From: Candidatus Saccharimonadota bacterium
GTDB lineage: Bacteria > Patescibacteriota > Saccharimonadia > Saccharimonadales > Saccharimonadaceae
NCBI GenBank assembly: GCA_017432425.1
Contig: JAFRJE010000023.1
Coordinates: 62,001-126,000 of the forward strand
Length of the DNA stretch: 64,000 nucleotides
Direction of reading: 5' to 3'
Position 1 is the first letter of the stretch. The number at the start of each line of letters is the position of its first letter. The position numbers and the translations under genes are program-made. The notes below the pieces were generated by a model. The model worked only from the letters and a program-made list of their open reading frames with translations, was not told where the DNA came from and did no database searches. Below, one piece after another: positions 1-62,035 of this stretch.

Positions 1-274
1 TACGACCAGTACCGTCAGAAGCAGTAACAGTAGACCAAGTCGGAGCAGTTCCACCATCAGTTGCAGCGACAGTAGAGCCAGCGGTATGGGAAATACCAGA
101 AACCGGATCGAGAGGAAGCGTAGCGCTACCGAATGTACAAGACGGAAGAACCGTAATGTTTAGAGTATCGGTATGTTGGTCGCTTTCCGTGTCTGTAGCG
201 AAAGTTGCTACCGGAGCTAAAGCAACTGCGAGGCCGGCAATGACGCCGAGACCGGCAATAATTCTTTTGGACAT
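1..274 (-). CDS. WxL-like secreted surface protein, N-terminal part (runs off the window)
   Basis: The first 91 codons of a secreted protein are visible; the rest lies left of the window. A basic start (MSKR), a hydrophobic stretch and an Ala-X-Ala-like end (TFAT) make a clear signal peptide of about 27 residues. The mature part is rich in Thr, Ser and Asp and begins with a short beta-like segment (TLNITVLPSC). Start and leader resemble the two WxL-like genes at 28236-28880 and 29841-30608, so I infer a paralogue. The ATG at 274 follows an AAAGGA ribosome site and its own promoter at 340-368. It is the only surface gene beside the RloAB island. Family assignment is tentative because the diagnostic C-terminus is not visible. 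Confidence 0.65.
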   Translation of the reverse strand, partial: MSKRIIAGLGVIAGLAVALAPVATFATDTESDQHTDTLNITVLPSCTFGSATLPLDPVSGISHTAGSTVAATDGGTAPTWSTVTASDGTGR

Positions 275-399: not shown

Positions 400-1857
400 T
401 TATATGCTTTCGATAATACAAATCAATATCTCGATTGAACGTTTTATATCTTCAGCATTAGGCTTTTGTCGTATCGGATTGGGCTCTATCGTCGACTCCG
501 GATGATGGATGCAGTTTCTTATATAAACCGGTAATGTTCTGTCACCGCGTCCATTTATCCATCCGGTAGGCACTGCGTAATTTCCTGTTTGCCCGTCAAT
601 AAAATTATCTACATCGTCTATATTGGTGCTAACACCGGTAATTTGGTTGAGCCGCTCCTGAAGAAACCCAAACAAATCATTGTGAAAATCGCTTGTTGGC
701 AGATTGAATGCTCCATATTTTATTTCGTTATATGTCGGACTATATGGAAAAAGATTTAGATTCTCAGCTTTTTCGGCTACGATATCACCACTAGCATTGC
801 GCTTCATAATAAAAATGAGGTCTTTAGCCTCATATGCGTCTTTTATCACGTATTCGGAGTGAGTTGCAACGAACAATTGTGCAATTTGTCTGCCGTTTTT
901 ATTTAATAGTCTTTTATAGTACTCAAGTATCCTGTCTTCCCATAGAGGGTTTAGAGATTGTTCAGGTTCATCCAGAATAGAGATGAAAGGGTTGTCCAAA
1001 TTAATATCTTTTAAAAAGAAAGCTCCATTTTGAACTATATTTTTTTCTCCAGAGCTTAAACCTTGAACTTTAAATTTTTCTCTATTCTTCTTGAAAATAA
1101 TTTCAAAATTGTCTATTTTTGAAAATTCCAGTCCATTGTCAAAAAAATGATTAAAAGCACTTCTGAAACGTTTTACTCTATTTTCCGCGTCTTCTACAGC
1201 GACCGTCCCTGTTTCTAATAATTTATTTTGAAGTTCCGACGCATCTTGATAGTTTATATTAGTAAGTAGTTCGGATATATTCAAGTCATTAGAGGAAACT
1301 ATCCGATTATTCTGTTTATAGTCATCTGGGTTATCTATAGTAAGAGTAGTGGTTTGACTAACTTCCCGGAACGATGGTTCTTTATCATTTTTCTTAATTT
1401 TTGCAACTACATTCGACAACAAAAATCCTATAGATGACCTCGTTTCTCCATAGGGAGCATATAAGATATTTTTTTCATTTTCTTCAAACGAATATCTAGC
1501 CATGCCCCAATACCCCATATTTCTTCGTCCTGGTTCCGATATTGTTATATGGCTCAATTGTGACAAAATCTCCTCTGGAGTCTTATCTTTGAAACCATCA
1601 TTGACCAAAATTTCTTCTGAAGCATTTTCTAAAACAAACAAGATATCCTCTATATCTAGCCGAACAATAACTTCCATATACTTGCCGTGCAAATCTGATG
1701 AGATTTGGGAAATGCTGTTGAGAATCGTCGTTTTTCCGTTCCCGTTTTCACCAGCAAAAATTACAGTGTCATAGACGCCACCGGCAGTATCCGTAAAATC
1801 TAACTCTAAATTCTTAAGGGTAGGGTGGTTGAGGAATTTTAATTTTGATATCTTCAT
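400..1857 (-). CDS. AAA/ABC-type ATPase with a HEPN-like C-terminal motif
   Basis: A 485-residue SMC/OLD-like AAA ATPase. Walker A is GENGNGKT (36-43), the ABC signature LSSGE lies at 267-271, Walker B ILDEPE at 294-299, and the switch His in ATHSEY at 333. After the ATPase fold comes a tail of about 110 residues with the motif RNCIHH (R447, N448, H452). This fits the R-N-x3-H motif of HEPN ribonucleases, so the tail may be a toxin domain; that is inference. The gene starts 8 bases after RloB and ends the three-gene minus-strand unit, so the three are probably co-expressed. DNA here is more AT-rich than in the housekeeping genes, which suggests transfer. A role in phage defence is likely from context but unproven. 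Confidence 0.75.
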   Translation of the reverse strand: MKISKLKFLNHPTLKNLELDFTDTAGGVYDTVIFAGENGNGKTTILNSISQISSDLHGKYMEVIVRLDIEDILFVLENASEEILVNDGFKDKTPEEILSQLSHITISEPGRRNMGYWGMARYSFEENEKNILYAPYGETRSSIGFLLSNVVAKIKKNDKEPSFREVSQTTTLTIDNPDDYKQNNRIVSSNDLNISELLTNINYQDASELQNKLLETGTVAVEDAENRVKRFRSAFNHFFDNGLEFSKIDNFEIIFKKNREKFKVQGLSSGEKNIVQNGAFFLKDINLDNPFISILDEPEQSLNPLWEDRILEYYKRLLNKNGRQIAQLFVATHSEYVIKDAYEAKDLIFIMKRNASGDIVAEKAENLNLFPYSPTYNEIKYGAFNLPTSDFHNDLFGFLQERLNQITGVSTNIDDVDNFIDGQTGNYAVPTGWINGRGDRTLPVYIRNCIHHPESTIEPNPIRQKPNAEDIKRSIEILICIIESI

Positions 1858-1865
1858 ATCTGCTA

Positions 1866-2462
1866 TTACTCCAATTTTATTCGCGAAACCACTTTATCTA
1901 CATCCGTCGTTGGTGACGATTCTAGAATATTGCTTCCATATGTTTTTCTAAGCCTCTCTGCTTCTACGAGCGCCTTGTTTACCATATCGATTGAAAATCT
2001 GGACTCGTTTATGATTTTGCCATCGTCTCCTTTAACTAGCCTTGCAGTCTTAGCCATTCTTTGGGCTTCTTTTCGATTACTCGCTTTGCTGTCTACTTTT
2101 TTGTCAAGGTGAGCTAAAAGCCAAATCTCAAAAGATTCATTAGAAATACACAGGATAACACCAAGCCCTTTCGAAATTTTTATCGCGGCATTTAGTTCAG
2201 TCTCTTTATGCTGGTCTTTATCGCATACGACAAAAGCTAAATCGTAATTACCCTTATTTCTTATCTCACTAGCACGTTTTATTACTTTTAAAAGGTTGCC
2301 TTTTATATATTTGGGATAAATTATGTCGACAGCTTTCTTTTTTAGCCATTCAAAATATCCAACTTCTGTTCTTTCTCCGTCTGTTGCTACTAGAAATCGG
2401 CGTCTTTCTTCCTTTCCTTTGGCGTCGTTTCTACCAGGCGCCGTAGGCCACTTGTTGCTCAT
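1866..2462 (-). CDS. rloB: RloB/AbiLii-family protein (Toprim-like)
   Basis: A 198-residue RloB-family protein. The motif DGERTE (E30) near the N-terminus, the pair D81-K82-D83 after a hydrophobic strand, and the conserved block SFEIWLLAH (110-118) match the RloB/AbiLii family, whose fold is related to Toprim nucleases. Its ATG overlaps the stop of the upstream rloA-like gene in an ATGA arrangement, so translation is coupled. RloA and RloB were named from restriction-linked loci in Campylobacter, and the equivalent AbiLi/AbiLii pair is a lactococcal abortive-infection system. I infer that this protein is the effector of a two-part defence system with the ATPase at 2459-3805. Confidence 0.85.
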   Translation of the reverse strand: MSNKWPTAPGRNDAKGKEERRRFLVATDGERTEVGYFEWLKKKAVDIIYPKYIKGNLLKVIKRASEIRNKGNYDLAFVVCDKDQHKETELNAAIKISKGLGVILCISNESFEIWLLAHLDKKVDSKASNRKEAQRMAKTARLVKGDDGKIINESRFSIDMVNKALVEAERLRKTYGSNILESSPTTDVDKVVSRIKLE

Positions 2463-3805
2463 TTTTTCTGTTCCTTCCAGTAATTTTGAATAACATATGA
2501 CAATGAGACTTTTGGCGTAGCACCATATCTTCCCTCTATATATTTTTTATATACATTATCATCTTTTTTCGTAGTGTATTTTATGCTAGATAGAGGATAA
2601 AGTTCGGATGATCCGTCTTTATGTTTCTCCGTAAACCATATTTCGTCCCTATCTAAAATATTTTCTCCGTATATAGACGAATCTAGTAAGGTTGTATCGT
2701 GGGTAGTAAAGATTAGCTGCGCTCCATTTGGATTCGTTTTCTTATTATTAAACGCATCTATTATTTGAGACGTGATAAATGGGTGTAGACTTTTGTCGAG
2801 TTCATCTACTATATATATTGAGCCGTTTTTTAGAATCGAAAGTAAATCAAGAATTAGGCTTGCCCCCGTAAGGGTTCCGTCTGATTCTTGATCCAAATTT
2901 AAACTGGCCAATTTCCCGTCAACGACGTGGCGAAAAATCGCTTTTTTGATTTTCGCCTTGAACGGCTCATTGTCTATTCCTTCTAACATTTTCTCGTCAG
3001 GTTTTTCATCTCCAGCTCTGAGAATCTTTTTCATCATATCGGTAAAAATATTGTATTGCTCTTCATTCAACGCAGTATCTTCATCTACCATTTCAACCGA
3101 ATCGATTCCCATGTCTAATACCGGAATAATCTTATTCAAGAAATCGAACTTTTCTTCGTCCTGGGTAGCCTTATTTACTGTTATTTCGTTATTTATTTTG
3201 CTAGATTCTAATAGTTCCGTCCTAAAGACCAATTCATCATCAAAAAAATTATATGCAGCTTTAGCGTCTTGGCTATTAGAATCTTTCAAGAATGACAAAA
3301 TCGGGACAAACGGGTTCTTCGTAAAATTATATTTTAAAGCAGTTTTTTCGTCGTTGTCGAATGCTTTAAGAGATATAGGAATGCCAGATTTACCATATTC
3401 AAACATCGTAGTAGGCTGATTAGAGTTGTAAACTTCTAGGCGTTCGTAATCGATTAATTTTTCTTTTACTATTAATGTGTAATTATATTTTTTACCGTTC
3501 ATAGCGAAAAACGACAAGTAGAACGATAATGGCTCAGCACTTCCAATAAAACTCTCAAATTGAACCTTGTCAATTGAATACTTCTTTGTTATAAAATTTT
3601 TGAGAGATAATAATGCATTCAGAAAATTAGATTTGCCCGACGCATTCGCGCCATAAATTGCCGCAGCTCTAGATAGCCCCTCTTTAGGAAGCCCGTCTTT
3701 GATGATCGGGTCTTTTTCTAGGTCAAGATTAGTATTACGACGCATAGAAAAAGATTGGTCGTCTTTGAAACTTTTATAGTTTTTGAATGAAAAATCAATT
3801 AGCAT
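2459..3805 (-). CDS. rloA: RloA/AbiLi-family AAA ATPase
   Basis: A 448-residue ATPase of the RloA/AAA_21 type. From the ATG at 3805 it begins MLIDFSFKNYKSF, the typical family start. Walker A is GANASGKSN (52-60); late in the protein come an ESDGT signature, Walker B VDELDKSLHP and the switch His in TTHD. I chose 3805 over the longer frame from 3853 because it has an AGGAG site six bases upstream and because the -35 box lies inside the extra segment. The ATPase probably senses or regulates, and RloB acts. The gene heads the unit rloA-rloB-ATPase and is divergent from the gene at 3938. AT-rich composition supports acquisition as a module. Confidence 0.87.
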   Translation of the reverse strand: MLIDFSFKNYKSFKDDQSFSMRRNTNLDLEKDPIIKDGLPKEGLSRAAAIYGANASGKSNFLNALLSLKNFITKKYSIDKVQFESFIGSAEPLSFYLSFFAMNGKKYNYTLIVKEKLIDYERLEVYNSNQPTTMFEYGKSGIPISLKAFDNDEKTALKYNFTKNPFVPILSFLKDSNSQDAKAAYNFFDDELVFRTELLESSKINNEITVNKATQDEEKFDFLNKIIPVLDMGIDSVEMVDEDTALNEEQYNIFTDMMKKILRAGDEKPDEKMLEGIDNEPFKAKIKKAIFRHVVDGKLASLNLDQESDGTLTGASLILDLLSILKNGSIYIVDELDKSLHPFITSQIIDAFNNKKTNPNGAQLIFTTHDTTLLDSSIYGENILDRDEIWFTEKHKDGSSELYPLSSIKYTTKKDDNVYKKYIEGRYGATPKVSLSYVIQNYWKEQKK

Positions 3806-3824
3806 ACATTGCTCCTTGCTGATT

Positions 3825-3853
3825 ATTATATCAATAAAAATGAATATTATCAA
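3825..3853 (-). promoter_or_regulatory. Promoter of the rloA-rloB-ATPase unit
   Basis: On the minus strand TTGATA (3848-3853), 17 bases and then TATAAT (3825-3830). Transcription should begin near 3818, about 13 bases before the chosen rloA ATG. No operator repeat was seen around it. Confidence 0.75.
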
Positions 3854-25093: not shown

Positions 25094-25115
25094 GGACTTT
25101 TTTATATTTTTAAAC

Positions 25116-25152
25116 AAAAAACGGACGCCCTCGCAGTTTTGAGCGTCCGTTT
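25116..25152 (-). terminator. Terminator of the VPNTG surface protein gene
   Basis: A ten-pair stem (25119-25128 with 25143-25152) and a 14-base loop, followed by a T-run on the minus strand. It closes the DUF916 locus and separates it from the small RNA. Confidence 0.88.
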
Positions 25153-25165
25153 CTTTTAAGTTGTT

Positions 25166-26167
25166 CTAGCGGCGGGATTTATAGTTCTTGCGATAATTTT
25201 TCTTCTGTTTTTTTCCGACAATCATTAGGGCGATAACCGCAGCCGTCGCGAAGACGATAACGCCGGTTATCATATAGTCGGAGGTAGAGATATTGAGCGA
25301 GGAGAGAAAGCGACCAGTATTCGGAACTTCGGGGGCTTCCGGAGCGGTATAGTTCAAGCGGAGAGCGTCGTATTCGCCATTAAAGATTTCATCATACGGA
25401 GCGTTGATTTCTTCATTTTCTTCGTCGTAAGCCGTTAAAAGGAGGCGATAGGTTCCGGTCGCGGCGCCGTAGCTACCGAGAGGGATTGTAATAGTTTTTG
25501 TTCCGGCAGGATATTCGCCATTTTCGTCCGCGTCGTTTTTGACAACAATCGGTTCGCTATTGAGTTTGTTACCGTTTTCGTCGTAAATATCATAGCTAAC
25601 CTCGGAAACGCCCTCGGCAAATTCGACTTCTGCCGTCGGATCGCCGTCTTCGTTGACTCCGGTTTGGGTAATTGCGGCGGGGATATAGAAGAATTCAATT
25701 TCATCTTCGTCGTGTCCGACCGGGCTACTAGACTCAACATGGAGATAGAAGTGATTGTAGCCAGCTTCGCTAGCAATCGCCGCTAGGTCTATGGTATAGG
25801 TCGTTTCGCCGGAAGCGTAGTTGAAAACTGGGTCGAGCTCGCTAGGCGTAAAATCCGGAAGAGGAATTTCAACAACTTCTTCTTCGCCAGTCGTTTCGTT
25901 TAACTTATAGTATTTTAATGTAAATTTTACAACAGAAGAATTTTCGTATTTGACGCCAACGTCAATCGAGGGGTCTGTTGTTACGGCGCCACTTTCCGGC
26001 GATTCAACAACGACGCTCGGATATTGGTCATAGACGACTACTTGTATGGTTTGGGTAACTGACTCCGCCGCCGCGTTCGGCGTCGGAAGATAATAGGCTA
26101 CGATAGTCATGACCACAACAATCACAAGACTAAAGAGCCCTAAAAGACGTTTTTTCGCTTTTTTCAT
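25166..26167 (-). CDS. Secreted Ig-like surface protein with a VPNTG sorting-type tail
   Basis: A 333-residue protein. A signal peptide (basic start, hydrophobic 9-27, ANAAAES-like end near 30-35) is followed by two or three beta-rich domains with many Glu, Asp and Tyr. The C-terminus has VPNTG (281-285), a transmembrane helix (about 298-318) and a strongly basic tail (319-333), the layout of a sortase sorting signal although the first residue is Val rather than Leu. The gene is last in the DUF916 unit and is closed by a terminator. No sortase gene is in the window, so covalent anchoring is not shown. Likely role: surface adhesion or scaffold. Confidence 0.8.
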   Translation of the reverse strand: MKKAKKRLLGLFSLVIVVVMTIVAYYLPTPNAAAESVTQTIQVVVYDQYPSVVVESPESGAVTTDPSIDVGVKYENSSVVKFTLKYYKLNETTGEEEVVEIPLPDFTPSELDPVFNYASGETTYTIDLAAIASEAGYNHFYLHVESSSPVGHDEDEIEFFYIPAAITQTGVNEDGDPTAEVEFAEGVSEVSYDIYDENGNKLNSEPIVVKNDADENGEYPAGTKTITIPLGSYGAATGTYRLLLTAYDEENEEINAPYDEIFNGEYDALRLNYTAPEAPEVPNTGRFLSSLNISTSDYMITGVIVFATAAVIALMIVGKKQKKNYRKNYKSRR

Positions 26168-26229
26168 AACTCTACACTCGCTTTTTTATTTTTAGTTTTT
26201 ATTTCGGAAGAAACGTTTTTCTCGACTCT

Positions 26230-27165
26230 CTACACAACTAACCGAGAACTACGTTCTTTACGCTTCCTAAGTAGGATTATAGACCAGATTATAATGCTTG
26301 TCAATAGTAAAACCATAATCACAATCACGAAAATCGGCAAAATCAATATGATATGGGTTTCGGATTGGGAGGCGTCGAGCGCAGTAACTTCATAATTAAC
26401 GTTAAAAATCCCGAAAAGCGGAGCGTCGGTCCATTCCGTCGAGAACTTGCGTTGGGTTTCTGGGAGGACAGCAAATCCCTCCTCGTTCGTATAAAGGGTT
26501 TTACCGAAGATGCTTTTAACTAGGAGTTTATATTTTGCGGTAAAGTCGGTATTGCCGTTATTCTTAACGGTCGCGGAGGCGGAAATATTGCTGCTCGTAA
26601 ACATACCGGTCAGTTTATAGTCGACGATTTCCGCGGTTCCGTTAGTCTCGCCGGAGCCATGTCCGAGGAGATAAAGTCCGACGCGAGAAGCGGTTTCGAT
26701 ATTCATGCTTAATTCTTCGCTTCCGCTCGAATCGTCTTTAACGGTTTCCGCCATGATAATTCCGTATTGCCCGCCGTCGGGAATATCGTCAGGGACGGTA
26801 ACGCGATAAACAATAACTTGTTTTTCGCCAGGTTCAATTGAGAAGACTGGGTTCGCGACGAAACTGCCGGATTGGTCTTGGAAAGTTACCCAGCGAGTTA
26901 TTTGGTTATAAGCGGTTTCTTTCGAGAAATCGTTTGTATAGTCTTCGTCGGAAACGTTATAAGGAATGACGTAGAGTTTATAGGAATATTTTTCGGTTCC
27001 GGTATTTTCGATTGAGAAAGTATAGTTCTGGACGTCGCCGGCTTTAATTGAGAAACTGTTGACGACGGGAGAGATTTGCATGGCATTTCCCTCGGCGAAG
27101 GCGTTATCTTGGGCACCGAGGAGAGAAGTTAGGACTAGGGCAAGCAGGAGAAAAAGTTTCTTCAT
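26230..27165 (-). CDS. DUF916-like (WxL-interacting type) membrane protein c
   Basis: A 311-residue protein with a signal peptide (MKKLFLLLALVL to NAFAEG), an extracellular region and a C-terminal transmembrane helix followed by a basic tail. The region contains the blocks ITRWVTF, SIEPGEKQVIVYRVTVP and PDGGQYGIIM, the pattern of the DUF916/WxLIP peptidoglycan-binding domain, and a second beta domain before the helix. In Firmicutes such proteins hold WxL proteins at the cell wall. It lies ten bases after the second DUF916-like gene and 62 bases before the VPNTG gene. Family call is by motif pattern only. Confidence 0.8.
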   Translation of the reverse strand: MKKLFLLLALVLTSLLGAQDNAFAEGNAMQISPVVNSFSIKAGDVQNYTFSIENTGTEKYSYKLYVIPYNVSDEDYTNDFSKETAYNQITRWVTFQDQSGSFVANPVFSIEPGEKQVIVYRVTVPDDIPDGGQYGIIMAETVKDDSSGSEELSMNIETASRVGLYLLGHGSGETNGTAEIVDYKLTGMFTSSNISASATVKNNGNTDFTAKYKLLVKSIFGKTLYTNEEGFAVLPETQRKFSTEWTDAPLFGIFNVNYEVTALDASQSETHIILILPIFVIVIMVLLLTSIIIWSIILLRKRKERSSRLVV

Positions 27166-27175
27166 TAAAATTCCT

Positions 27176-28147
27176 TTAGATATTAAAGTTATTATTTCCT
27201 GGTTTCTCGAAACCGCGCGAGTTTGAGCGTTTTTTCGAGTTTTCGCGTTTCTTTATCATAATCCTCGCGACGAGAATAACGATAATCGAGACGAAGATAA
27301 TAATAAACCAAATCGGACAGATTACAACGATTCGATTAAAGATTTGAACGTCGTCGAGATATTCAACGCGCATCGTTAGGCGCATGACGCCGAGACGGAG
27401 GACGTTATCAAATTGCATTTCAACGGTTTTTTCGGTTTCAGGGAGGAGATAGGACTCTTTCGGGCTATCGGAATTAGTATAGAGTTTTGCGCCAGTAATT
27501 GCGTTTTCAATATCGACGGTAATCTTCGCGGCAGTATCGACGTTTCCGGTATTAGTCAATTTTACGCTCGATTTAATCGGCGGAGCGAGGAGAAAGCCGG
27601 ATGCTCTAACGTCAACGATTTCGCCGGTTTCGCGAGTCGTCCCAGAAAGGCGAGCGGAGATAACATAATTTATGCTAGCATCAACGCTAACGCTTTGTCT
27701 ATCTCCAGTTGCGTTTCTAGTTGTAACCGAAATCGCAGCGTATTGTCCTCCGCCAGGAGCGTCTTTTGGAACGGTAATCGTATAATAGATAATTGCTGCT
27801 TCTCCCGGTTCGAGAGTATATTTATCGGCTTCGGTTTCAATCCAGTTCGTGATTTGGGTATAGGAATTTTTAACGTTAAAAATAGGCTTATAGGTCTCTT
27901 TTTCTACCTGAAACGGAAGAACATCAATTTCAAAAGTTTTTTCTTCTTCGCTTTTATTGACTATCGTAAAGTTGTTTTTGTATACTGCGCCAGGGTCGAG
28001 CGACATCCTATCCTCGACTGGGGAGATTTGAAGTTTTGTCTCAACTTCTTCTGCCGCAAAAACTTTTCCATTAAGAAAAACTAAAGAAAATAAACTCAAA
28101 AACAATACTGAAAAAATATATTTTAGCCTTTTAGAACTTTTTGTCAT
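27176..28147 (-). CDS. DUF916-like (WxL-interacting type) membrane protein b
   Basis: A 323-residue paralogue of the proteins at 26230 and 28969. I chose the ATG at 28147 (MTKSSKRLKYIF) over the longer frame to 28198 because AAGGAGG stands just upstream and because the longer frame enters the terminator at 28189-28222. Signal peptide ends near VFAAEE. Blocks ITNWIETE, LEPGEAAIIYYTITVP and APGGGQYAAI repeat the family pattern, and a C-terminal helix with a very basic tail (KKRENSKKRSNSR) anchors it. It starts the transcript that continues through 26230 and 25166. Confidence 0.82.
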   Translation of the reverse strand: MTKSSKRLKYIFSVLFLSLFSLVFLNGKVFAAEEVETKLQISPVEDRMSLDPGAVYKNNFTIVNKSEEEKTFEIDVLPFQVEKETYKPIFNVKNSYTQITNWIETEADKYTLEPGEAAIIYYTITVPKDAPGGGQYAAISVTTRNATGDRQSVSVDASINYVISARLSGTTRETGEIVDVRASGFLLAPPIKSSVKLTNTGNVDTAAKITVDIENAITGAKLYTNSDSPKESYLLPETEKTVEMQFDNVLRLGVMRLTMRVEYLDDVQIFNRIVVICPIWFIIIFVSIIVILVARIMIKKRENSKKRSNSRGFEKPGNNNFNI

Positions 28148-28188
28148 GAACCTCCTTAAACTATTAAATATTATATAAAAGTTAAGAT

Positions 28189-28222
28189 AAAAAAACAACC
28201 GCTTTTTTGCGGTTGTTTTTTA
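28189..28222 (-). terminator. Terminator after WxL-like gene b
   Basis: A twelve-pair stem (28191-28202 with 28209-28220) around a six-base loop, with T-runs on both strands. It ends the transcript of 28236-28880 and splits the locus into two transcription units. Confidence 0.88.
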
Positions 28223-28235
28223 TTTCTTGACTATT

Positions 28236-28880
28236 TTAACCGTTGTAGGCGGTAGGTGTAGCCGTATAGGTAATCGTTGCTTTATAAGTATCAGCAACTT
28301 CATCCGTAGCGGTTACGATACCGAAGTTGACGTATTTGGTTTCGTCAAAGGAGGCAGAACGAGCCGCAGTGTCGGCTGCTCTTAAGGTGTCGCCATTTCC
28401 AGTAGGAATATCGTTATAATCCTTTCCGGAATAGTCGCCTAAGAGGGTCGCACTAGAGCCGCTCGCAGCGGTATCGGTAACACGATAGCCCCAACCATGT
28501 CCATTAGCCTGAACTGTTCCAGCAGTCGGAAGAGCGGTAGCGGTAGAACTAATTGAAGGGATTTGTTTACTGGTTGCTTCGCCTAGAAGATAGCTATGAT
28601 CGGCAGACATTGTTAAGACGTAGCCAGCACTATAGTTACCATCGGCTTTAATTCTATGTTCGAGTTCTTCGTTGGTCGTACCACGATCCATTGCAACTTT
28701 GTTAATCTCGGCGGTAGTAGAAGCAGCTTTAAAGCTTTCTACCGAAAAATTAAAGACCTCATTAACTTCAACTTGAACTTCTTCTTCGCCGGTTACCGCG
28801 TGAGATGCTAACGGGAGAAGAGCAATTCCTAACCCAGCAGCAACGCCAAGCGTAGCAATAATTTTAGAACTTTTAACCAT
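28236..28880 (-). CDS. WxL-like secreted surface protein b
   Basis: A 214-residue protein with a signal peptide (MVKSSKIIATLG to LASHAVT). The mature part is Ala/Thr/Ser/Asp-rich and beta-like, with Trp in GHGWGYRV and a C-terminal block DEVADTYKATITYTATP that recalls the end of WxL domains (a Gly/Ala-D-T-Y turn followed by a last strand). A canonical WxL pair is not obvious, so I call it WxL-like. No membrane anchor: it would need a partner, and DUF916-like genes stand on both sides. It has its own promoter (28945-28972), an AAAAAGGAAAA ribosome site and a strong terminator, which suggests high expression. Confidence 0.72.
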   Translation of the reverse strand: MVKSSKIIATLGVAAGLGIALLPLASHAVTGEEEVQVEVNEVFNFSVESFKAASTTAEINKVAMDRGTTNEELEHRIKADGNYSAGYVLTMSADHSYLLGEATSKQIPSISSTATALPTAGTVQANGHGWGYRVTDTAASGSSATLLGDYSGKDYNDIPTGNGDTLRAADTAARSASFDETKYVNFGIVTATDEVADTYKATITYTATPTAYNG

Positions 28881-28944
28881 CGTTTTTCCTTTTTATTTGT
28901 GTGTTAAAATTTTATATTTTTATTTATGACCTTTTGTATTTCTT

Positions 28945-28972
28945 ATTATACGCTTAAGGTTTTTAAAGTCAA
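28945..28972 (-). promoter_or_regulatory. Promoter of WxL-like gene b
   Basis: TTGACT (28967-28972), 16 bases and TATAAT (28945-28950). The leader is about 58 bases and begins with AGAAATACAAAAGGTCA, almost the same as in the leader of the gene at 1-274. The -35 box overlaps the stop of the upstream gene. Confidence 0.75.
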
Positions 28973-29817
28973 TAGTTTTTTATTATATTTTTTCGTTCCC
29001 TTACCCGCATGATAAACCAGAAGATTAAAGAGAAGACAAAGAGAAGACAAAGAAAGAGAAACCAACCCGGACAAGCAACGACGATTCTTTCTCGAGAACT
29101 ATAAGAATCGGCGGCGGAGATTTCTTGGACAACGCGGAAAACGCCGAGGCGCGGAGTTTCGTCCCAGGTTTTTTTCGAGAAAAGGACAGTCTCCGGGAGG
29201 AGAGTATTCTCGACGGGCGTTTCTTCGTTGGAATAGATTTCTTGGTTTGAGAAAAGCGGATAGACTCTTAAAATATATTCCGCTGGGGTATGGATATTGC
29301 CTTTATTCTCGACAAGCGAAGAAACTTCAACGGGGTGGTCGAGATTGAAAATATTGATATTATTTTCTAGAATTTCTATTTCTTCGACGGTCTCTCCGGC
29401 GACCGAAGCGTAAAGAATGGAGGCGACTCGGCTTTTTGTCGAAAGACTAAGGGTCTTTTCTTTAGACTCGTCGTTTTTTACTTCAACGAGGAAACTGAGA
29501 TATTGACCGCCGGCAGGGGCGGTTTCTGGGACGACGATTTGATAAGAAATCGTCTTTCGTTCGTTTTCCATAAGCTCCCCGCTCGGAGTATCGACGGTCG
29601 TCCAATCGACGATTTGGTTATAGTCATCGCGGTCGTAAAAGTTCGCATCGTAGGTTTCGTCGTCAACGCTATATGGGGAGATTTTAACGGCAAAAGAAAC
29701 GGATTTGGTTTTGCTTAAATTTAGAATATCAAACTCTCCGGAATAAACTTCTCCCGGAGAAAGCTCGATTTTTTCGATTCCTTTCGAGACGCCAATCGAA
29801 ACTACTTCATCGTCCAT
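28969..29817 (-). CDS. DUF916-like membrane protein a, without a signal peptide
   Basis: A 282-residue paralogue with IVDWTTV, YQIVVPETAPAGGQYLSF and a C-terminal transmembrane helix (GWFLFLCLLFVFSLIFWFI) with a basic tail. Unlike its paralogues it begins at once with mature-domain sequence (MDDEVVSIGVSKGIEKIELSPGE). Upstream in frame there is a TAA and only 23 bases separate it from the gene at 29841, so a signal peptide cannot be hidden. TATAAT lies seven bases before the ATG, suggesting leaderless expression. It is either exported by its C-terminal helix acting as a reverse anchor or has lost its signal. Confidence 0.78.
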   Translation of the reverse strand: MDDEVVSIGVSKGIEKIELSPGEVYSGEFDILNLSKTKSVSFAVKISPYSVDDETYDANFYDRDDYNQIVDWTTVDTPSGELMENERKTISYQIVVPETAPAGGQYLSFLVEVKNDESKEKTLSLSTKSRVASILYASVAGETVEEIEILENNINIFNLDHPVEVSSLVENKGNIHTPAEYILRVYPLFSNQEIYSNEETPVENTLLPETVLFSKKTWDETPRLGVFRVVQEISAADSYSSRERIVVACPGWFLFLCLLFVFSLIFWFIMRVRERKNIIKNY

Positions 29818-29840
29818 TATATATATTATATATTATATTT

Positions 29841-30608
29841 TTACGAAGCGGCGTTAAGCGAGAGGGTATAGGTTATTGTCCCGGTATAAGTATCGGCAGG
29901 GGTCGCTCCACCAGTCGAGACGCCATAGGTTACGGTAAATTCTTGGTCGCCAATATAGGTATTGGCGACGGAGTTGATGGTCTGGAAAGTGTTACCAGAG
30001 ACGACAGTTGCGCCGCCAACGACCTCGCCATCATCAATACTTCCGGGAGGAACTAGATTCAAGACATTATAACCAGGAGCGTAAGTCGGGGGAGTCGTGC
30101 TATAAGAGTTTCCGTTGATTGTAACGGATTTCGCGCTGCCAGCGACACGCATCTGCCAGTTTGACTCGGAGGAGGAGAGGGTCCCGGATTTTGAGTAGAT
30201 TTTCGCAGGGTTCGTCGAGGGGTTAGTCGGCTCCATAGTTGCGTAGTCGACTCCGCCGATTTGAGCCTTATTATTAGAGGCGGCGTTCACTTTCCAACCA
30301 TAAGTCGAGCAACTGTTACTTCCGCTACCGATATAATTACATGTTACGCGAAAAGTCGAAGTTCCGAAGCTAGACTTTGTACTGCCAGCGTCGAGAGTTG
30401 CACTATAAGTTCCGTTTGAATAAGTAACGTCATTGTCGCCGGCTACGCCGCTAACGAGAGCGAGAGCGAGGACGTTGTTGACGTCGAGAGTAACGGCATT
30501 AGTATGGCTAACGACGGAAGTCGAAGCAAACGAGCTAGACGGAAGGACGGCAGCGCTTAGTCCAACCAGACTTCCTAAAATCGCAACTAATTTAGTCGAT
30601 ATTCTCAT
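29841..30608 (-). CDS. WxL-like secreted surface protein a
   Basis: A 255-residue protein with a signal peptide (MRISTKLVAILG to SSFASTS). The mature part is rich in Ser, Thr, Gly and Asn, contains TYGWKVNA and NWQMRV, and ends TPADTYTGTITYTLSLNAAS, which is the closest in this window to a WxL C-terminus. Two Cys (TCNYIGSGSNSCST) could form a disulfide. It has its own promoter with a 31-base leader and AAAGG site, and is followed 23 bases on by the signal-less DUF916-like gene. Role: probably a major surface protein held by the DUF916-like partners. Confidence 0.75.
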   Translation of the reverse strand: MRISTKLVAILGSLVGLSAAVLPSSSFASTSVVSHTNAVTLDVNNVLALALVSGVAGDNDVTYSNGTYSATLDAGSTKSSFGTSTFRVTCNYIGSGSNSCSTYGWKVNAASNNKAQIGGVDYATMEPTNPSTNPAKIYSKSGTLSSSESNWQMRVAGSAKSVTINGNSYSTTPPTYAPGYNVLNLVPPGSIDDGEVVGGATVVSGNTFQTINSVANTYIGDQEFTVTYGVSTGGATPADTYTGTITYTLSLNAAS

Positions 30609-61689: not shown

Positions 61690-62035
61690 AAGATATAATC
61701 TCCTTCGGGGTCATCTCTTCTTTCTTTAGTATACCCTTTACGCCATAAATTTTTAAGTCTTTTTCCTTAAAATCGAGACTAGAAATTAAAATAATCGGGA
61801 TTTTCATCGTGTCGGGATAGGTCGCGATTTCGTTTAGAAAAGAAAAACCGTCAAAGCCAGGAAGAAGAACGTCGAGAAAAATTAAATCTGGAAGCGGTTC
61901 GGAATCGAGCGCCGACATCGCTTCGGGAATATGGTGGAAAATTTTAGTTGTTGTGTTTTTTACAACAGAGAGCACCCGAGAAACGCACTCAGCCATTAGT
62001 TCGTCGTCGTCGATTATATAAATTAGTTTTCGCAT
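61667..62035 (-). CDS. Stand-alone receiver-domain response regulator
   Basis: A 122-residue receiver: acidic pair D9-D11, phosphorylated Asp55 in FLDVLLPG, Ser85/86 and Lys104 as the switch and active-site Lys. There is no output domain, so it must act by binding a partner. It lies six bases after the histidine kinase gene, and its end overlaps recO. Confidence 0.92.
   Translation of the reverse strand: MRKLIYIIDDDELMAECVSRVLSVVKNTTTKIFHHIPEAMSALDSEPLPDLIFLDVLLPGFDGFSFLNEIATYPDTMKIPIILISSLDFKEKDLKIYGVKGILKKEEMTPKEIISYVKRYTN

Follow-up and report, generated by a model that had tools for sequence, protein, structure and literature searches.

A locus of six genes was studied in a 64,000-nucleotide stretch of DNA (positions 62,001 to 126,000 of contig JAFRJE010000023.1, GenBank assembly GCA_017432425.1), hereafter called the window. 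The source is a Candidatus Saccharibacteria metagenome-assembled genome (MAG) with a completeness of 97.5%, its 30 contigs adding up to 711,736 bases. Nearly all of the nearest public loci are likewise in Candidatus Saccharibacteria MAGs, and many of these derive from ruminant gut. Six minus-strand open reading frames (ORFs) occupy 25166–30608 and are transcribed in the order X1-W1-X2-W2-W3-N. Small secreted proteins were named X, proteins with two immunoglobulin-like (Ig) domains and a transmembrane (TM) helix W, the protein with a VPNTG motif N, and an extra membrane protein found in related cassettes M. The locus is real and conserved. It belongs with the WxL/WxLIP systems, has a distinct partner domain and was judged to be probably a divergent surface display module of that type. 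The observations behind this reading are the homology and fold of W, the linkage of the genes, the predicted fold of X and the architecture of large X proteins. Binding of X by W, strand donation, the anchoring role and host contact are inferred. An initial annotation made from the letters alone had described six consecutive minus-strand genes of a DUF916/WxL-like surface locus in a putative genome of the Candidate Phyla Radiation (CPR). All six ORFs were present, the source is indeed such a genome, and the interpretation as a whole was partly supported.

Kinship of the W proteins with WxLIP and conservation of the locus

The three membrane proteins had been called DUF916-like, and this was borne out: W is a real relative of WxLIP (DUF916), as judged from a scan of family members, a profile search of the PDB, the fold and PF06030 matches in other CPR bacteria. 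PF06030 (PGBD) was the family matched most often by W members (62/116, best E-value 5.4e-7). Among the window proteins, W2 alone matched it (E 0.0009, 19.8 bits for a cut-off of 27.3), and direct Pfam and NCBIfam scans of these proteins gave nothing over cut-off. The PF06030 cut-off was passed in 4 of 60 genomes of the genus, and clearly so by more distant homologues that the W profile retrieved in other CPR bacteria (48.9 and 37.9 bits). When the W profile was compared with 177,635 PDB sequences, the EfmWxLIP1 chains 9i25/9i1y were the top two (E 0.006) and the only matches at E<0.1.

The AlphaFold2 model of W2 (predicted local distance difference test, pLDDT, 91.9; predicted template modelling score, pTM, 0.80) retrieved WxLIP at Foldseek ranks 1–3 (E 4.3e-13 to 4e-12), with the E. 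faecium protein first. By VIA, WxLIP also gave the best DALI-scale score (Z 14.3), with 226 residues aligned at a root-mean-square deviation (rmsd) of 8.6. With full-length W, the match extended over the two domains of 9i25_C and 9i1y. Two-domain pilus chaperones (CfaA, CsuC, FimC) formed the next fold class, PapD-like proteins reaching Z 11–12 by VIA. W1, W2 and W3 each end in a membrane helix and a basic tail, and W2 and W3 have the complete WxLIP layout of signal peptide, tandem Ig pair and C-terminal TM helix. The C-terminal helices had been presented as a departure from Firmicutes, which was mistaken, since WxLIP itself carries one (PMC10599100). PF11797 (DUF3324, HBD) was not among the 25 Pfam families matching W members most frequently. 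A V-x-C-P-x-W motif stands at the membrane entry, ahead of the TM helix, in most W proteins, W3 being an exception, and the W3 cytosolic tail RKRKERSSRLVV is almost unchanged among type-1 W3 proteins from different genomes. In two loci from other CPR lineages (L148, L150), the C-terminal part of the W homologues includes LysM domains, and WxL genes are adjacent.

W1 has no signal peptide, and neither has a second W clade, located behind nrdD/nrdG (anaerobic ribonucleotide reductase, annotated by eye; for example L069:5989-6852). The helix and basic tail are kept in both. In the window an in-frame stop directly precedes the W1 start. Supply of a signal peptide to W1 from X1, by programmed frameshift or by readthrough, was ruled out, as the reading-frame offset differs among relatives.

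W was found in 143 of the 147 genus genomes sampled (94 of the 95 good ones) and, across the phylum sample, in 70/145 genomes and 64/131 genera. Matches to PF13731 (WxL) occurred in nine of the 145 phylum genomes, three of them over cut-off. W was present in all nine, and the WxL gene mostly lay within a few kb of a W gene, so that W adjoins true WxL proteins elsewhere in the phylum; of 13 CPR W neighbours, 12 matched WxL. In the fetched Saccharibacteria loci, X adjoined 82 of 95 W proteins with a signal peptide, the peptide being called by a simple hydrophobicity rule and the loci having been fetched by their W. In a set of 16 genomes, 29 of the 34 small X listed were located at most 4 kb from a W, a zone that makes up about 3% of the genome. 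The W and X families occurred together in 15 of these genomes, and neither was present in the remaining one. Linkage between W and the small secreted proteins was thus non-random across genomes. Of the two refuting conditions named with the annotation, random co-occurrence and the lack of a profile match for any of the proteins, neither held.

Eight other Saccharibacteria have the order X1-W1-X2-W2-W3-N. Shorter forms, X-W-W-N, were found in further relatives, often behind the gene of a 577-aa peptide-binding protein, as in the window. In the W tree, clades were obtained for W1 (support 98), W3 (99) and type-1 W2 (98, without L050), each protein being grouped with its positional counterparts. 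The agreement of these clades in inner order speaks for joint inheritance. Because the six-gene order recurs in eight relatives and W1, W2 and W3 fall in positional clades, the locus is more than a chance arrangement. A 1069-aa ABC transporter with an FtsX permease is encoded upstream of X1 in one relative (L045:57-3266); ORFs of similar size are found in several others, and there is none at this position in the window.

The X proteins, the proposed mechanism and its rivals

X1 and X2 have a signal peptide and no anchor. They had been described as WxL-like secreted proteins without anchor, as had, for its WxL likeness, the gene at the window edge. Secretion, lack of anchor and the edge gene itself were confirmed; the WxL likeness was not, as no profile matched and the C-terminal strand alone could be aligned. 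No Pfam family was matched in the scan of X members, and PF13731 gave no match at E<=10 in the window's own genome. The window X proteins contain no W-x-L, of which some relatives have one; in place of the two Trp-x-Leu motifs of a WxL domain, the C-terminal strand of X reads Y-x-G-x-(V/I)-x-Y-T. The CPR WxL profile, run against the PDB, retrieved no WxL chain. The X2 model (pLDDT 81, pTM 0.74) is a beta sandwich. Its best Foldseek matches were chaperone-usher pilins (CfaB, FimA, CsuA/B; E about 2e-3), with donor-strand fibres such as Pyrodictium cannulae and an archaeal 0406 filament also found and no WxL chain among the matches listed. By VIA, a glycosidase N-domain scored highest (Z 9.2), and pilins and donor-strand fibres reached Z 6–7. 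X is not recognisable as WxL by its sequence, and its predicted fold appears pilin-like.

Large X proteins of about 560–930 aa were found in relatives. They consist of an N-terminal X domain followed by FISUMP or PARCEL/DUF285 surface domains, and X matches per genome reach 29. In the window's own genome, two candidates (L189, L190) gave weak X matches (E 5e-4 and 1e-3) and no NCBIfam match. Both run off the fetched stretch or contig, and their assignment as large X is only suggestive.

In the display module, W would after export be anchored in the cytoplasmic membrane by its C-terminal helix, with its two Ig domains outside the cell, arranged as in WxLIP and PapD-like chaperones. It would bind secreted X, most likely through a beta strand of its own that joins the X sandwich. 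This mode was considered the most likely because a WxLIP hairpin completes the WxL sandwich in an AlphaFold2 prediction (PMC10599100) and because a WxLIP-WxL complex, judged by the entry title, is deposited as 9i25. Small X would present themselves at the surface, and large X would present their fused FISUMP or PARCEL repeats. N would be fixed to the wall by sortase and might anchor the assembly on the wall side. The module would probably serve in adhesion to, or recognition of, a host bacterium or the gut surroundings.

The main rival is a filament. Pilin-like X with an incomplete Ig fold would assemble into a polymeric pilus or thread by exchanging strands, W would be a membrane-anchored PapD-like chaperone or base, and large X would be the adhesive subunits. 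The best Foldseek matches of X favour it, as does the second fold class of W, and X2, with a promoter-like site before it and a terminator behind it, forms a unit by itself, which would suit an abundant subunit. However, the Foldseek E-value of X is only about 2e-3, the top VIA score belongs to a glycosidase domain and not to a pilin, and no usher-like gene was seen among the locus genes, no dedicated genome search having been made and no usher being expected in a monoderm. The filament was considered unlikely. CPR bacteria are not expected to have an outer membrane, and an usher-type pilus as such was rejected on this ground. The likeness to chaperone-usher systems (PapD, FimC, CsuC, CfaA and their pilins) lies in a two-Ig-domain partner encoded beside small Ig-like secreted proteins and in the fold ranking of both; the differences are the membrane anchor of W, the lack of an outer membrane and usher, the weak fold scores of X and the absence of a sequence match. 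The donor-strand fibres of TasA and archaeal threads are likewise built from small secreted beta-sandwich proteins of monoderm cells, and an archaeal filament protein was among the X fold matches; a polymer of X, and any sequence kinship with these fibres, would be conjectural. A WxLIP-like partner is not known from those fibre systems. It is also possible, if doubtful, that WxLIP/WxL and chaperone/pilin pairs are one principle used by CPR bacteria: a membrane-anchored PapD-like W would donate a strand to pilin-like X and load a surface assembly, possibly a filament, with variable adhesins for host-cell contact.

Several results weigh against the display module as proposed. The PF06030 cut-off was reached by none of the three window W proteins, and other Ig families (NPCBM_assoc, fn3_5) matched almost as many of the 116 W members. 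Rigid superposition of W on WxLIP was poor (rmsd 8.6–9 over both domains), probably owing to a different domain angle. The lack of a signal peptide in W1 is conserved in all nine type-1 loci. PF13731 was matched by 0 of 83 X members, and X aligned with the profiles of true CPR WxL proteins at the last strand only (A-G-x-Y-x-x-x-V-x-Y-T-L), at an hhalign probability of 6–7%. Large X and large WxL proteins also differ in domain order, with the X domain at the N terminus and the WxL domain at the C terminus. The profile checks proposed with the annotation supported DUF916 kinship through the W family and its CPR homologues, with the window W below cut-off, and gave no WxL match for X.

These sub-threshold scores, the matches to other Ig families and the lack of a Pfam family for X would also suit a surface operon of generic Ig-fold membrane proteins, in which W and WxLIP would have no more in common than the two-Ig-TM layout, X would be secreted but unrelated, and the locus would have no kinship with WxL. 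That reading is quite improbable: WxLIP came first in three whole-PDB comparisons, and W homologues in other CPR bacteria adjoin true WxL proteins. A protein coat, with X2 and its relatives as a major S-layer-like layer W merely as a tether and no adhesive role, would fit small secreted proteins with strong promoter-like sites and the presence of W in nearly all genus genomes, but was held very improbable, as large X are fused to FISUMP/PARCEL domains and X diverges fast, which speaks for display and not for a uniform lattice.

Compared with the WxL/WxLIP (DUF916-DUF3324) clusters of Lactobacillales, Listeria and Enterococcus, the display module shares the clustering of the genes and a protein with signal peptide, two Ig domains and TM helix, which here is kin to PF06030 and finds its top fold match in WxLIP. 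It also shares a small secreted partner together with larger proteins that pair the partner domain with adhesin-type domains; small and large X parallel the small and large WxL of Firmicutes, in reversed domain order. It differs in that X is not WxL by profile and is N-terminal in the large proteins, DUF3324 was not detected among the 25 families most frequent in W, some W have no signal peptide, the operons add a membrane protein M or a sortase substrate N, and the system is found in CPR bacteria.

Gene layout, N protein and other copies in the genome

The features are listed in the table. Terminators had been placed in the middle and at the end of the locus, and both were found. Promoter-like sites, identified as consensus matches, precede X1, X2 and N; 22 such sites were found, against 9.2 in shuffled sequences.

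Features of the six-gene locus and of the window edge (window coordinates)
Feature	Position	Strand	Description
Third X protein, 5' part	1..274	-	full length 245 aa; opens an X-M-W cassette running past the window (C13:59874-62274)
Intrinsic terminator after N	25111..25150	-	stem ACGGACGC/GCGTCCGT, T tract; found by inspecting the sequence
N	25166..26167	-	333-aa surface protein; signal peptide, VPNTG-TM-basic sorting signal
W3	26230..27165	-	WxLIP-like, signal peptide-Ig-Ig-TM, 311 aa; conserved cytosolic tail RKRKERSSRLVV
Sigma-70-like promoter before N, within W3 3' end	26276..26304	-	perfect TTGACA-17-TATAAT; consensus match alone
W2	27176..28147	-	WxLIP-like, signal peptide-Ig-Ig-TM, 323 aa from ATG 28147 (more likely start); longest ORF from TTG 28198
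Symmetric intrinsic terminator after X2	28190..28221	.	13 bp stem, T tract
X2	28236..28880	-	214-aa secreted beta-sandwich protein (predicted); own promoter-like site and own terminator
Sigma-70-like promoter before X2	28945..28972	-	TTGACT-16-TATAAT, 11/12; consensus match alone
W1	28969..29817	-	282-aa WxLIP-like Ig-Ig-TM, no signal peptide; start just after X1 stop; W1 clade support 98
X1	29841..30608	-	255-aa secreted beta-sandwich protein (predicted), X family A2/A5; signal peptide, no anchor; position kept in 8 relatives

The C terminus of N consists of VPNTG, a TM helix and a basic tail, as annotated. With this sorting signal, and with three PF04203 sortase genes over cut-off in the genome, N has the features of a sortase substrate. 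Homologues of N, mostly with (V/I)PxTG, are placed after W-W in more than 20 relatives. Sortase probably attaches N to the wall, where it could anchor the W-X assembly.

The genome contains six W genes and five clear X genes. The locus accounts for three W and two X, and the remaining copies are in three X-M-W cassettes. One is at the window edge, where the rest of the X gene and its partners M and W are just outside the window. Contig C27 carries the other two back to back (L009:4047-12252, G000:C27), with genes for a serine recombinase and a sortase in the vicinity. These two opposed cassettes have 118-nt inverted repeats of 89% identity on either side of a 458-bp gap, and this arrangement could allow inversion. 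Beside the edge cassette, window positions 400–3853 encode AAA ATPases, one of them AAA_15/PtuA-like by profile, and a protein of 198 aa that resembles RloB by eye, possibly a defence gene group.

Significance for Saccharibacteria

In the literature searched, WxL or DUF916 was not joined with Saccharibacteria, Patescibacteria or CPR beyond apparently incidental mentions, as judged by title. The means by which CPR bacteria, and above all Saccharibacteria, attach to their hosts and recognise them are still an open question. The module occurs in almost all sampled genomes of the genus and in about half of the sampled phylum genera. As it is made of surface proteins, is widespread and carries variable adhesion-type domains in relatives, it provides concrete genes for co-culture tests. 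The finding would extend the WxL system far beyond Firmicutes, and it offers a concrete, testable candidate for how Saccharibacteria may decorate their cell surface.

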